This document shows, in pieces, positions 32,137-35,950 of a stretch of 64,000 nucleotides of DNA. Position 1 is the stretch's first letter. Every line of letters starts with the position of its first letter. A model generated the notes under the pieces. The model searched no databases and was not told where the DNA came from. It saw nothing but the letters and a program-made list of their open reading frames with translations. Made by a program: the position numbers and the translations under genes. This DNA is from Gammaproteobacteria bacterium. Its GTDB lineage: Bacteria > Pseudomonadota > Gammaproteobacteria > Pseudomonadales > Pseudohongiellaceae. The DNA lies in contig PCCP01000046.1 in the NCBI GenBank assembly GCA_002731775.1, positions 5,247 to 69,246 on the forward strand, read 5' to 3'.

Positions 32137-32565
32137 CTACTTGACCACTCGTAAAGTCGGCTTCTTTTTACCCAATCCTGGCGACTTCACTCCAGCCAAG
32201 GTGTTGCCGTTGCCATCGGGCGTGACTGGGGGCGGGGGTTCGGGAAGAATTCCGTCGGCCTCGAATACCATTCCCTGCCCACTCTCCTTCGCATAGATTC
32301 CCATCACCGCAGCAATTGGAACAAACACACTCTTGGGGATGCCGGCGAAGCGACCGTCGAAGTCTATGGCCTGATCGCGGATGAAAAGATTTTGTACGGC
32401 ATTGGGAGAGATGTTGAGGATGATCTGACCATCTTTGACGTGTTCCTGGGGGACTTCAACACCGGCTACGAAGGCATTGACCTGAATGTAGGGCGTACAA
32501 TCGTTCTCCATAATCCAGTCGTAGAGTGCCCGCACTATATACGGTCGGCTAGAACTCATCGTCAT
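32137..32565 (-). CDS. sspB: ClpXP protease specificity-enhancing factor SspB
   Basis: SspB delivers ssrA-tagged proteins to ClpXP. The N-terminal domain (SSSRPYIVRALYDWIMENDCTP onward, with VKDGQIILNISPNAVQNL and IPKSVFVPIAAVMGIYA) binds tagged substrates. A flexible Pro/Gly-rich linker ends in LRVVK, the ClpX-docking tail. I chose the ATG at 32565 because GGAG lies 8 bases upstream; an upstream GTG is in frame. It is downstream of sspA, the usual pair. Confidence 0.95.
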   Translation of the reverse strand: MTMSSSRPYIVRALYDWIMENDCTPYIQVNAFVAGVEVPQEHVKDGQIILNISPNAVQNLFIRDQAIDFDGRFAGIPKSVFVPIAAVMGIYAKESGQGMVFEADGILPEPPPPVTPDGNGNTLAGVKSPGLGKKKPTLRVVK

Positions 32566-32596
32566 CGCAAACACTCCATCTTGAGCTACTGCTCTT

Positions 32597-33229
32597 CTAA
32601 ACCATCTCCTTTTCCTGTTCAGAAAAGCTCGCCATCACCGAGTCTCTTTCAAACAGTCGATCCCGGTATTCCAACAATGGCTTCGTGGTTTTGTTTTTGG
32701 GCAATTCTATCCCCATAACCGCCAAGCGCCATAGAATTGGTGTGACACAGCAATCAACAATAGTGAATTCGTCACTCATGAAAAAGGGCTTTTCACCAAA
32801 TATGGGTGCTATCGATATCAGGCTATCACGCAATTCATTGCGCATCTTGTCCAACTGCGAAGGAGTTCCGTCGCCAGCCATGATTGGATCAACCAATCTG
32901 CACCAGTCTTTCTTGATTCGATAGATCCAGAGCCGGCTCTGGGCTCTCGCCACCGGATACACTGGAAATAAAGGCGGATGCGGGAATCTCTCATCGAGGT
33001 ATTCCATCATGATGTTGGCTTCATATAAAACCAAATCACGATCGACCAATGTCGGCAGGGTATTATATGGATTCAGACTGGCCAGATCTTCCGGCTTGTC
33101 ATCCGGATCCACATCGATGGTTTCAACTGCTACGCCTTTCTCTGCCAAAACCACGCGCACTCTATGACTATAGTGGCTGGTTCCGTCCGAATAAAATGTC
33201 ATGGAAGATCTTTTAGCGACCACACCCAT
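32597..33229 (-). CDS. sspA: Stringent starvation protein A (GST-fold)
   Basis: SspA is a glutathione-S-transferase-fold protein that binds RNA polymerase and affects stationary-phase transcription. The N-terminal thioredoxin-like part (MTFYSDGTSHYSHRVRVVLA, NPYNTLPTLVDRDLVLYEAN) and the helical C-terminal part fit the family. The ATG at 33229 has a strong AGAGGAA seven bases upstream and gives 210 residues, the usual length. The -SPYS- active-site motif of true GSTs is replaced, as is normal for SspA. Confidence 0.95.
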   Translation of the reverse strand: MGVVAKRSSMTFYSDGTSHYSHRVRVVLAEKGVAVETIDVDPDDKPEDLASLNPYNTLPTLVDRDLVLYEANIMMEYLDERFPHPPLFPVYPVARAQSRLWIYRIKKDWCRLVDPIMAGDGTPSQLDKMRNELRDSLISIAPIFGEKPFFMSDEFTIVDCCVTPILWRLAVMGIELPKNKTTKPLLEYRDRLFERDSVMASFSEQEKEMV

Positions 33230-33293
33230 AGCGATTCCTCTAATTTGAAATGTGAAATTTTTTTTATATAACAGCGACTGATTGACCCAAGCT

Positions 33294-35351
33294 TCAGTGA
33301 TAGTCTTTGGCAAATTCCCGGCCCATCAGGAAGGTGAGAATATACAGAACAGCTAAAAATAACAGCACCCATATACCAATTTCCTGTCGCCTGGCTCTTA
33401 TTGGCTCGCCGATGTAATACAGAAAATTGACAAGCTCGGAGACAGTCCCATCAAACTCAGATTCGCTCATGCTACCCGTGCCCGCCAGGTGGCTTAGCTC
33501 ACACTGGCTGGGATCATCACTACCATGATCATCACAGTTTACGTCACCCTGCAACTCGTGCAACACGTTCGGCATTCCCACGTTGGGAAATAGTTTATTG
33601 TTGGCACCAAACTGGCGTGATCCATCGTTGTAAAATGATTTGAGATAGGTATACAGCCAATTTGGTGAACGGACCCGACCTATCAGGGTCAGGTCTGGTG
33701 GCGCAGCACCAAACCAGTCCAGGGCATCATCCTCTGACAGCGTGTTCTCAATCAGATCGCCGATCAATGCATCACTAAAAACCAGATTGTCCATCACTGA
33801 TTCGTAAGGAATTTCCAGGTCATCGGCGGTACGGGCGTAGCGTGCATATCCGAGTTCATGGCAACTCACACAGTAATTCATGTAAGTCTGGAATCCTCGT
33901 TGCAGCGACCCCTTGTCATCAAAATCGGTCTCTACCTGCTGCAGATGGATATTGTTTGCTGAAGCCTCGGCACTTCCCGACGCCAGCATCAACGGTATTA
34001 CAACCAGTGCGATTATCAACAAGATGCTACCCAGCAGTTGCGGAAAGCTGATCCAGCGACCGCTAGTAATGCGTTCCGGTGGCGTAGCGGTCTGCTCTAT
34101 TCGTGTGTACCACGGCATGGCGATGAAATAGCCAAAATAAATCACCGTCATTATCTGCGCTAGCAGCGTCTTTGCGGGACTCACATCCTGAGTTCCCAGA
34201 ACGCCCAGGATCAGAAAACTGACCACAAACATCATCAGGGCAATGCGGCTATACCAGCCCTTGTAACGCATGGACTTAACCGGACTTCTATCCAGCCATG
34301 GCATCACGAACAGGATAGCGATGGCACCACCCATCACCAACAAGCCCCAGAACTTCGCGTCGATTCCAAACAGCGGTATGGTGACCGCCCTCAACATTGA
34401 ATAAAACGGCGTGAAATACCAACTCGGTGGTACATGCTCGGGCGTCTTCAGTGGATTTGCTTCCTGGAAATTTGCAACTTCGAGGAAATATCCGCCCATC
34501 TCCGGCGCGAAGAATACCACTGCGCAGAATACGAACAGAAACAACACGATACCCGCCAGATCGTGGTACATGGTGTAGTAAGGGTGAAATGGGACACCGT
34601 CCAGGGGAACCCCGTCAGGGCCTTTGTTTTTCTTGATTTCGACTCCGTCAGGATTATTTGAACCGACCTCATGTAGGGCCAACAAGTGCAATATCACCAG
34701 CGCAATCAGGACAATCGGCAGTGCAACCACATGTAAGGCAAAGAACCTGTTGAGCGTAGCACCCGATATCAGATAATCGCCTCGCACCCATATGAGCAAG
34801 TCCTCACCTATTACTGGAATAGCGCCTACCAGGGAGACGATCACATTAGCTCCCCAATAAGACATCTGTCCCCAGGGCAGTACGTATCCCATAAAGCCTT
34901 CCATCATCAAGACGAAATAAATAGCCATGCCAAACACCCAGATCAGTTCTCTGGGCTTCTGGTAAGAGCCATACATCAGGCCACGAAACATATGGATATA
35001 GACGACGAAGAAAAAGGCGGAAGCGCCGGTAGAATGTAGATACCTCAGCATCCATCCATACTCGACGTCACGCATGATATATTCGATCGAAGCAAACGCA
35101 GCCTCTGCGGTGGGGGTATAGTTCATGGTCAGCCAGATACCAGTGAGCAACTGAATTACCAGAACCACCATGGAGAGGACACCGAAGAAATACCAGAAGT
35201 TGAAATTCTTCGGCGCATAATACTCACTCATGTGCTTCTTCCAGGTCACCATGATTGGCAACCTGGCATCGATCCAGTCACGCAAACCGATAAGAGCTGA
35301 CAGGAATCTACCGTGTTCAGCTGGGCCCTTCATATTATCTGATTGGCTCAT
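33294..35351 (-). CDS. Cytochrome b / cytochrome c1 fusion of the bc1 complex
   Basis: A single continuous 685-residue frame carries both membrane subunits of ubiquinol:cytochrome c oxidoreductase. Residues 1-435 are a complete cytochrome b, with eight or more membrane helices, the heme-ligand helices (LHSTGASAFFFVVYIHMFRG, RFFALHVVALPIVLIALVIL) and the Qo-site PPSW motif (EHVPPSWYFTPFY). About residues 432-455 form a hydrophobic segment ending ASGSAEA, which looks like a signal-peptidase site. Cytochrome c1 follows, with heme motif CVSCH at 494-498, the axial Met region FPNVGMPNVLHELQG and a C-terminal anchor helix. In pseudomonads petB and petC are separate genes. A cleaved fusion (fbcH) is known in Bradyrhizobium and relatives. 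The ATG overlaps the petA stop as ATGA. Confidence 0.93.
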   Translation of the reverse strand: MSQSDNMKGPAEHGRFLSALIGLRDWIDARLPIMVTWKKHMSEYYAPKNFNFWYFFGVLSMVVLVIQLLTGIWLTMNYTPTAEAAFASIEYIMRDVEYGWMLRYLHSTGASAFFFVVYIHMFRGLMYGSYQKPRELIWVFGMAIYFVLMMEGFMGYVLPWGQMSYWGANVIVSLVGAIPVIGEDLLIWVRGDYLISGATLNRFFALHVVALPIVLIALVILHLLALHEVGSNNPDGVEIKKNKGPDGVPLDGVPFHPYYTMYHDLAGIVLFLFVFCAVVFFAPEMGGYFLEVANFQEANPLKTPEHVPPSWYFTPFYSMLRAVTIPLFGIDAKFWGLLVMGGAIAILFVMPWLDRSPVKSMRYKGWYSRIALMMFVVSFLILGVLGTQDVSPAKTLLAQIMTVIYFGYFIAMPWYTRIEQTATPPERITSGRWISFPQLLGSILLIIALVVIPLMLASGSAEASANNIHLQQVETDFDDKGSLQRGFQTYMNYCVSCHELGYARYARTADDLEIPYESVMDNLVFSDALIGDLIENTLSEDDALDWFGAAPPDLTLIGRVRSPNWLYTYLKSFYNDGSRQFGANNKLFPNVGMPNVLHELQGDVNCDDHGSDDPSQCELSHLAGTGSMSESEFDGTVSELVNFLYYIGEPIRARRQEIGIWVLLFLAVLYILTFLMGREFAKDYH

Positions 35352-35950
35352 GCTGCAGTCTCCTCATCGATGCCTATGACCAGGACATCGCTGCCCTCAA
35401 ATGCATGCGGAGGTACCTGCATATTTCGGGATGATGGAGAACCGCTATAGACACGACCTGCCAGATCAAACCGCGAACCATGACAGGGACAGAAGAAACC
35501 GCCGCGCCACTGCGAATCGAAGGGCTGTGGGCGTAATTCGATATGGGGGGTAGGCGAACAAAATAAATGGGGACACAGACCGACCAATACCAAGATTTCC
35601 GGGGAACGCGAACGATATTCATTCTGCGCGTACGCGGGTTGCTCAGGTTCCTCTGAATCCGGATCCGCCAATCGATCAGGATCTTCGTTGAGTACGCTGA
35701 GGGTATCAGCATTGCGTCTAACGACGAAGATCGGCTGCCCGCGCCAGGCTGGAATGGGACCCAACATGGCGCCGTCCTCCAGGCGACTTATGTCTATCCT
35801 CACCGGTGCACCTGCCGCTCGTGCCTTGGCAGTGGGATTCCACGAACCGATAAAAGGGACAGCCGCCCCTACTACGCCTGCAGCACCTACAGCAGAAGTC
35901 GAACTCACTAAAAATCGCCTACGGCCAGCATTAATACTGTTGTCAGTCAC
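35348..35950 (-). CDS. petA: Rieske iron-sulfur subunit of the bc1 complex
   Basis: This is the [2Fe-2S] subunit that takes electrons from ubiquinol. The N-terminus has a twin-arginine-like signal anchor (RRRFLVSS at 10-17, followed by a hydrophobic stretch). The cluster ligands are C126-P-H128-L-F-C131 and C154-P-C156-H157-G-S. The first box is usually CTHLGC, and here it reads CPHLFC, but all four ligands and the two disulfide cysteines remain. The start is a GTG with a strong GAGGAG nine bases upstream. It is the first gene of the pet operon. Confidence 0.95.
   Translation of the reverse strand: MTDNSINAGRRRFLVSSTSAVGAAGVVGAAVPFIGSWNPTAKARAAGAPVRIDISRLEDGAMLGPIPAWRGQPIFVVRRNADTLSVLNEDPDRLADPDSEEPEQPAYAQNEYRSRSPEILVLVGLCPHLFCSPTPHIELRPQPFDSQWRGGFFCPCHGSRFDLAGRVYSGSPSSRNMQVPPHAFEGSDVLVIGIDEETAA

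Follow-up and report, generated by a model that had tools for sequence, protein, structure and literature searches.

The stretch of DNA analysed here, a window of 64,000 nucleotides from a marine-type gammaproteobacterium of the family Pseudohongiellaceae (contig PCCP01000046.1, positions 5,247 to 69,246, assembly GCA_002731775.1), raises the question of whether cytochrome b and cytochrome c1 are made from a single gene in this lineage, and if so, how the c1 domain would be matured and where the arrangement came from. The b–c1 frame lies on the minus strand and runs for 685 codons, from 35351 down to 33294, without an internal stop; the plus strand at 33294–35351 carries many stops. This confirms the original prediction of an uninterrupted frame leading from a complete cytochrome b into a complete cytochrome c1, and the hydrophobic stretch ending ASGSAEA that had been noticed at the junction is present, its last residue being 463. 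The features of the locus are as follows.

33294..35351, minus strand: petBC, fused cytochrome b–cytochrome c1 gene, 685 amino acids (frame and Pfam)
34062..35288, minus strand: cytochrome b part, approximately residues 22–430 (Pfam; matches the separate cytochrome b chain 8smr_I)
33963..34058, minus strand: internal hydrophobic segment, residues 432–463, proposed internal signal peptide ending GSAEA
33960..33965, minus strand: proposed signal peptidase cut between A463 and S464
33297..33962, minus strand: predicted mature cytochrome c1 part, residues 464–685 (Pfam; matches 8smr_J)
33858..33872, minus strand: haem c motif CVSCH, residues 494–498
33309..33389, minus strand: C-terminal membrane anchor of c1, residues 655–681 (hydropathy)
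35348..35950, minus strand: petA, Rieske iron-sulfur subunit, whose 3' end overlaps the petBC start
32597..33313, minus strand: sspA-like frame directly downstream of petBC (289 bits, below the NCBIfam cut-off of 314), the real start probably lying inside the frame
32137..32574, minus strand: sspB-like gene

The protein contains the Pfam domains Cytochrome_B (residues 42–230), Cytochrom_B_C (297–406) and Cytochrom_C1 (479–608). A CxxCH motif at residues 494–498, the methionine of GMPN at 593 and histidines 106, 120, 207 and 222 are all present and are taken here to be the haem ligands. Rieske protein, cytochrome b and cytochrome c1 are encoded together with the haem motifs in the window, as in a cytochrome bc1 complex (petABC). 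The closest solved chains are those of 8smr, presumably the Pseudomonas aeruginosa bc1 complex, with homologous b (651 bits) and c1 (186 bits). There, however, b and c1 are separate chains, and two genes encode them in the named Pseudomonas loci. Helix 8 of the window protein was missed when hydropathy alone was used, and two AlphaFold models were both poor (mean pLDDT 48.4 and 55.9). The window's genome, approximately 90% complete, gave one c1 match. At residues 309–312, which we assume to be the position of the Qo-site motif, the window has PSWY, otherwise found only in L154 and L198; PVWY occupies this position in 92 of the 99 fused loci and in 118 of the 165 unfused ones, with 31 of 268 loci outside the search pattern.

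Mapping of the fusion among gammaproteobacteria revealed that it is widespread in this order, the wider form that the original prediction had offered as one alternative. Unless stated otherwise, fused and unfused states were assigned from true stop-to-stop frames. An order-wide search gave a match in 366 of 391 genomes. Among the matches listed, at least 96 order genomes had a one-piece match across the junction (E 4.8e-243 or better), a count that covers the short form, as distinct from the long form described below, and of which a minority were read as frames. Three of these matches show a stop, and two of the three (G117 and G121) proved fused when the frames were read. In the loci of 96 genomes from other families of the order, chosen rather than drawn at random, 30 carried the short fusion and 15 the long one, while 51 were unfused (45/96 fused). 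Across the class, a sample of 84 genomes gave a match in 71. Frame reading found no fusion in 37 class genomes outside the order, all of which were unfused. Together with the named Pseudomonas loci these genomes are in keeping with the claim that petB and petC are separate in Pseudomonas and most gammaproteobacteria. Outside the order, the six strong matches whose listed frame reached at least 600 residues each resolved into two genes when read, and in the seeming fusions L032–L036 an in-frame stop separates the two genes; the remaining strong cytochrome b matches in the class sample had shorter frames. A weak match with a 666-residue frame (G494) belongs to another, b6-like protein, with 23% identity over residues 50–227.

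Amongst the 80 named loci listed, 18 were fused and 62 unfused. The fused labels among the matches listed are Halioglobus, Haliea, Halieaceae, Seongchinamella unica, Cellvibrionaceae, Endobugula, Cellvibrionales UBA1963, Porticoccaceae, SAR86 cluster NORP90, Pseudomonadales HM.19 and Gammaproteobacteria bacteria; the unfused, among the same matches, include Pseudomonas, Marinobacter, Halomonas, Marinomonas, Burkholderia and Thiobacillus, and L259, labelled Cellvibrionales (UBA2034), is also unfused. The petBC genes of Halieaceae, Cellvibrionaceae, Porticoccaceae and others share the fusion and its signal-like junction with the window, although their linker is mostly like TMDGGMGFW where the window has TGRWIS, and some carry an extra two-helix stretch of approximately 70–85 residues.

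The unfused relatives within the order suggest how the junction came about. Their cytochrome b mostly ends in PERVTG, PERVTMK or similar, and their c1 begins with an ordinary signal peptide. In fused genes the sequence beyond PERVT enters a hydrophobic segment with a signal-peptidase-like end. In 15 of the 16 unfused genes shown, the b stop and a candidate start codon for c1 share 1 or 4 bases (in L161 and L259 an ATG lying 11 bases downstream looks the likelier c1 start), so that a small indel at this short overlap could fuse the genes, and probably did. Cytochrome b and c1 would then be translated as one precursor, in which the signal peptide of c1, made internal by the fusion, would initiate export of the c1 domain. 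With its eight helices, cytochrome b has its C-terminus in the cytoplasm, and the internal signal would therefore be correctly oriented for c1 export. Signal peptidase I would most likely cut after A463, at the A463–S464 bond, releasing c1 and leaving cytochrome b with a ninth helix, the former signal. The gene thus very probably encodes the b and c1 subunits of an ordinary ubiquinol:cytochrome c reductase (complex III), made as one precursor with an internal c1 signal that is cut after A463.

Three other explanations can be set against this account. The fused frame could be an error of sequencing or assembly, the window having been drawn from an assembly of 126 contigs. Close relatives with two genes were sought as the observation that would betray such an error, and none was found: the window, 29 genomes of the same genus and four of other genera, making up the family sample of 34, are all fused by their true stop-to-stop frames (one of the 29 loci begins inside cytochrome b at a contig edge, with the junction intact). 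Of 37 same-genus genomes, the window's included, 33 had a match, of which 30 gave loci and three were partial near contig edges; four had no match. The closest named locus among the matches listed, L198 from an uncultured gammaproteobacterial MAG, carries the same fusion in a gene whose cytochrome b is 95.8% identical to that of the window. The recurrence of one and the same one-frame junction in independent genomes, in all 34 family members and in L198, together with fusion in 18 of the 80 named loci, makes an error scarcely credible. It is hardly more plausible that this fusion and the alphaproteobacterial ones descend from a common fused ancestor. Fusions of this kind are known, as the original prediction held in naming fbcH of Bradyrhizobium-like alphaproteobacteria: PMC4013037 places them in Bradyrhizobiaceae, some Rhodospirillales and Planctomycetes, and takes this distribution to suggest a fused form older than the separation of the beta and gamma groups; PMC12456017 gives fbcH as a named b/c1 subunit, and PMC6256036 cites the 1989 Bradyrhizobium work. 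No description of a b–c1 fusion in these gammaproteobacteria was recognised in the literature searched, coverage of which was partial. FbcH, here represented by L186, a locus from the same phylum that is presumably Bradyrhizobium-like, is likewise a single gene with b and c1 within one reading frame in the same domain order, and with a signal-like segment between them. Its junction sequence is different, however, and a single clade of all fused cytochrome b was rejected (p-AU 2e-97; 12 fused rows against 20), a test in which one of the 12 fused rows, the alphaproteobacterial-type L186, came from outside the class. L186 falls instead among other cytochrome b proteins from its own group, which were unfused in every locus read, and all 37 class genomes read outside the order are unfused. 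The rejection argues for an origin of the gammaproteobacterial fusion separate from the sampled alphaproteobacterial one, represented by one fused row; descent in common with it was not found, and independent evolution, the other alternative originally offered, held.

Rather less far-fetched, albeit improbable, is that the precursor stays uncut, the internal segment serving as a ninth helix which ties c1 covalently to cytochrome b. The segment is helical in both of the low-confidence AlphaFold models. A candidate cut site occurs in 94 of 94 distinct fused junctions; other helices have such sites too, and the crude cut-site score, which is not specific, placed the best site of the whole protein at the junction in only 61 of 95 fused proteins. 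Against this, P1, six residues after the conserved proline of the segment, is Ala (52) or Ser (7) in all 59 distinct fused junctions counted outside the window's genus type, with Val, Ala, Ile or Ser at P3. This count leaves out 33 rows of the window's genus type (among them five named loci assigned there), L010, which is one more row of the window's genus without the segment proline, and L186. The same position is not small (Tyr, Trp, Trp and Thr) in the four loci counted of the family f14, in which c1 has a signal of its own. Junctions of the window's genus type have a longer segment with AxA-like motifs at its end. The window's own junction has the pattern of a type I signal peptide, a hydrophobic stretch followed by small P1 and P3 residues (GSAEA). 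The median distance from the called cut to CxxCH is essentially that of separate c1 proteins, 31 in 97 fused rows against 30 in 164 unfused rows, and the Bradyrhizobium b/c1 protein is cut. A cleavable internal signal is therefore the most likely reading of segment 432–463.

In f14 the arrangement appears to have been undone. Cytochrome b there has a ninth hydrophobic segment at its end, which matches the linker of fused genes (TMNGGIG, GSLG, PLW); the frame then stops, and c1 follows as a separate gene. (A fifth locus, L177, has an unresolved stretch at the end of cytochrome b and was left out of the P1 count.) A 61-row cytochrome b tree built with the junction excluded places all 35 fused rows in one clade (95/97), which also holds ten unfused and three f14 rows. 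Within it f14 falls in a 13-row group with fused rows (99/97), as it does in a 32-row tree (99/98); a quick bc1 tree has f14 at an unresolved fork, and a SecA tree sets it beside the unfused families f30 and f31 (90), in a group among fused rows (82). The simplest reading of the f14 sequences and the cytochrome b trees, less clear from the bc1 and SecA trees, is that f14 apparently descends from a fused ancestor whose gene was later split, b retaining the old signal as its ninth helix. A nine-row unfused group nested in the fused clade (98/92) could reflect either a further reversal or two separate fusions. A single origin of the fusion was not rejected with the bc1 proteins (p-AU 0.351; 56 fused rows against 53, four long or uncertain rows, L035, L037, L154 and L183, being dropped). 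With SecA as a proxy for the species tree, by contrast, a single fused clade was rejected (p-AU 8.7e-6; 24 fused rows against 35, one genome of 60 being dropped as a fragment); SecA was chosen since RpoB was not found in the window's genome. Since the one marker rejects a single fused clade and the bc1 proteins do not, the conflict fits either reversals or transfer of the operon.

The long form of the fusion differs by approximately 70–85 extra residues with two hydrophobic stretches, a hairpin lying between helix 8 and the linker (17 loci). In profile comparison the hairpin is collinear with helices 7–8 over 52 columns at probability 76.7, and five other segments reached 6.4 or less. Pairwise comparison with helices 7–8 gave weak scores (z 1.4 to 5.0); in five of 17 rows some other segment of that cytochrome b scored higher, and in one it scored equally. 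The hairpin is thus probably a copy of helices 7–8, a reading which the profile comparison favours and to which the pairwise scores add no support. Long and short forms are intermixed, even within one genus, and the starred branches of the tree force at least five hairpin changes, suggesting that the hairpin was gained or lost repeatedly, with repeated loss presumed. As its helices would always come and go as a pair, c1 would stay on the same side of the membrane throughout.

Taken together, the chances are about even that the fusion is of old date and reversible in a large clade of this order, with f14 split and retaining a fossil ninth helix, and with a recurrent hairpin that is always paired. 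The fusion is known in kind, separately evolved and ordinary in mechanism; its evolutionary pattern is modestly interesting. The Bradyrhizobium-like b–c1 fusion has evolved again and is the usual state in several gammaproteobacterial families, apparently reversibly and with a fossil helix left behind. The natural series of unfused, fused, fused with hairpin, and unfused with vestigial helix allows tests of how membrane topology and signal peptides constrain the fusion and splitting of respiratory subunits.

A number of smaller observations emerged from the same searches. One genus of family f26 has two quite different bc1 types (L101 and L103 versus L104), and among the genomes listed those of this genus without a match (11) outnumber those with one (7). 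The locus L261, titled Verrucomicrobiaceae, has a b end and c1 start identical over the printed stretch to those of L170 from this order, and the record is for this reason probably mislabelled or contaminated. Finally, in two unfused class genomes outside the order (L181 and L182) cytochrome b ends with two extra hydrophobic stretches, like the hairpin of the long form.
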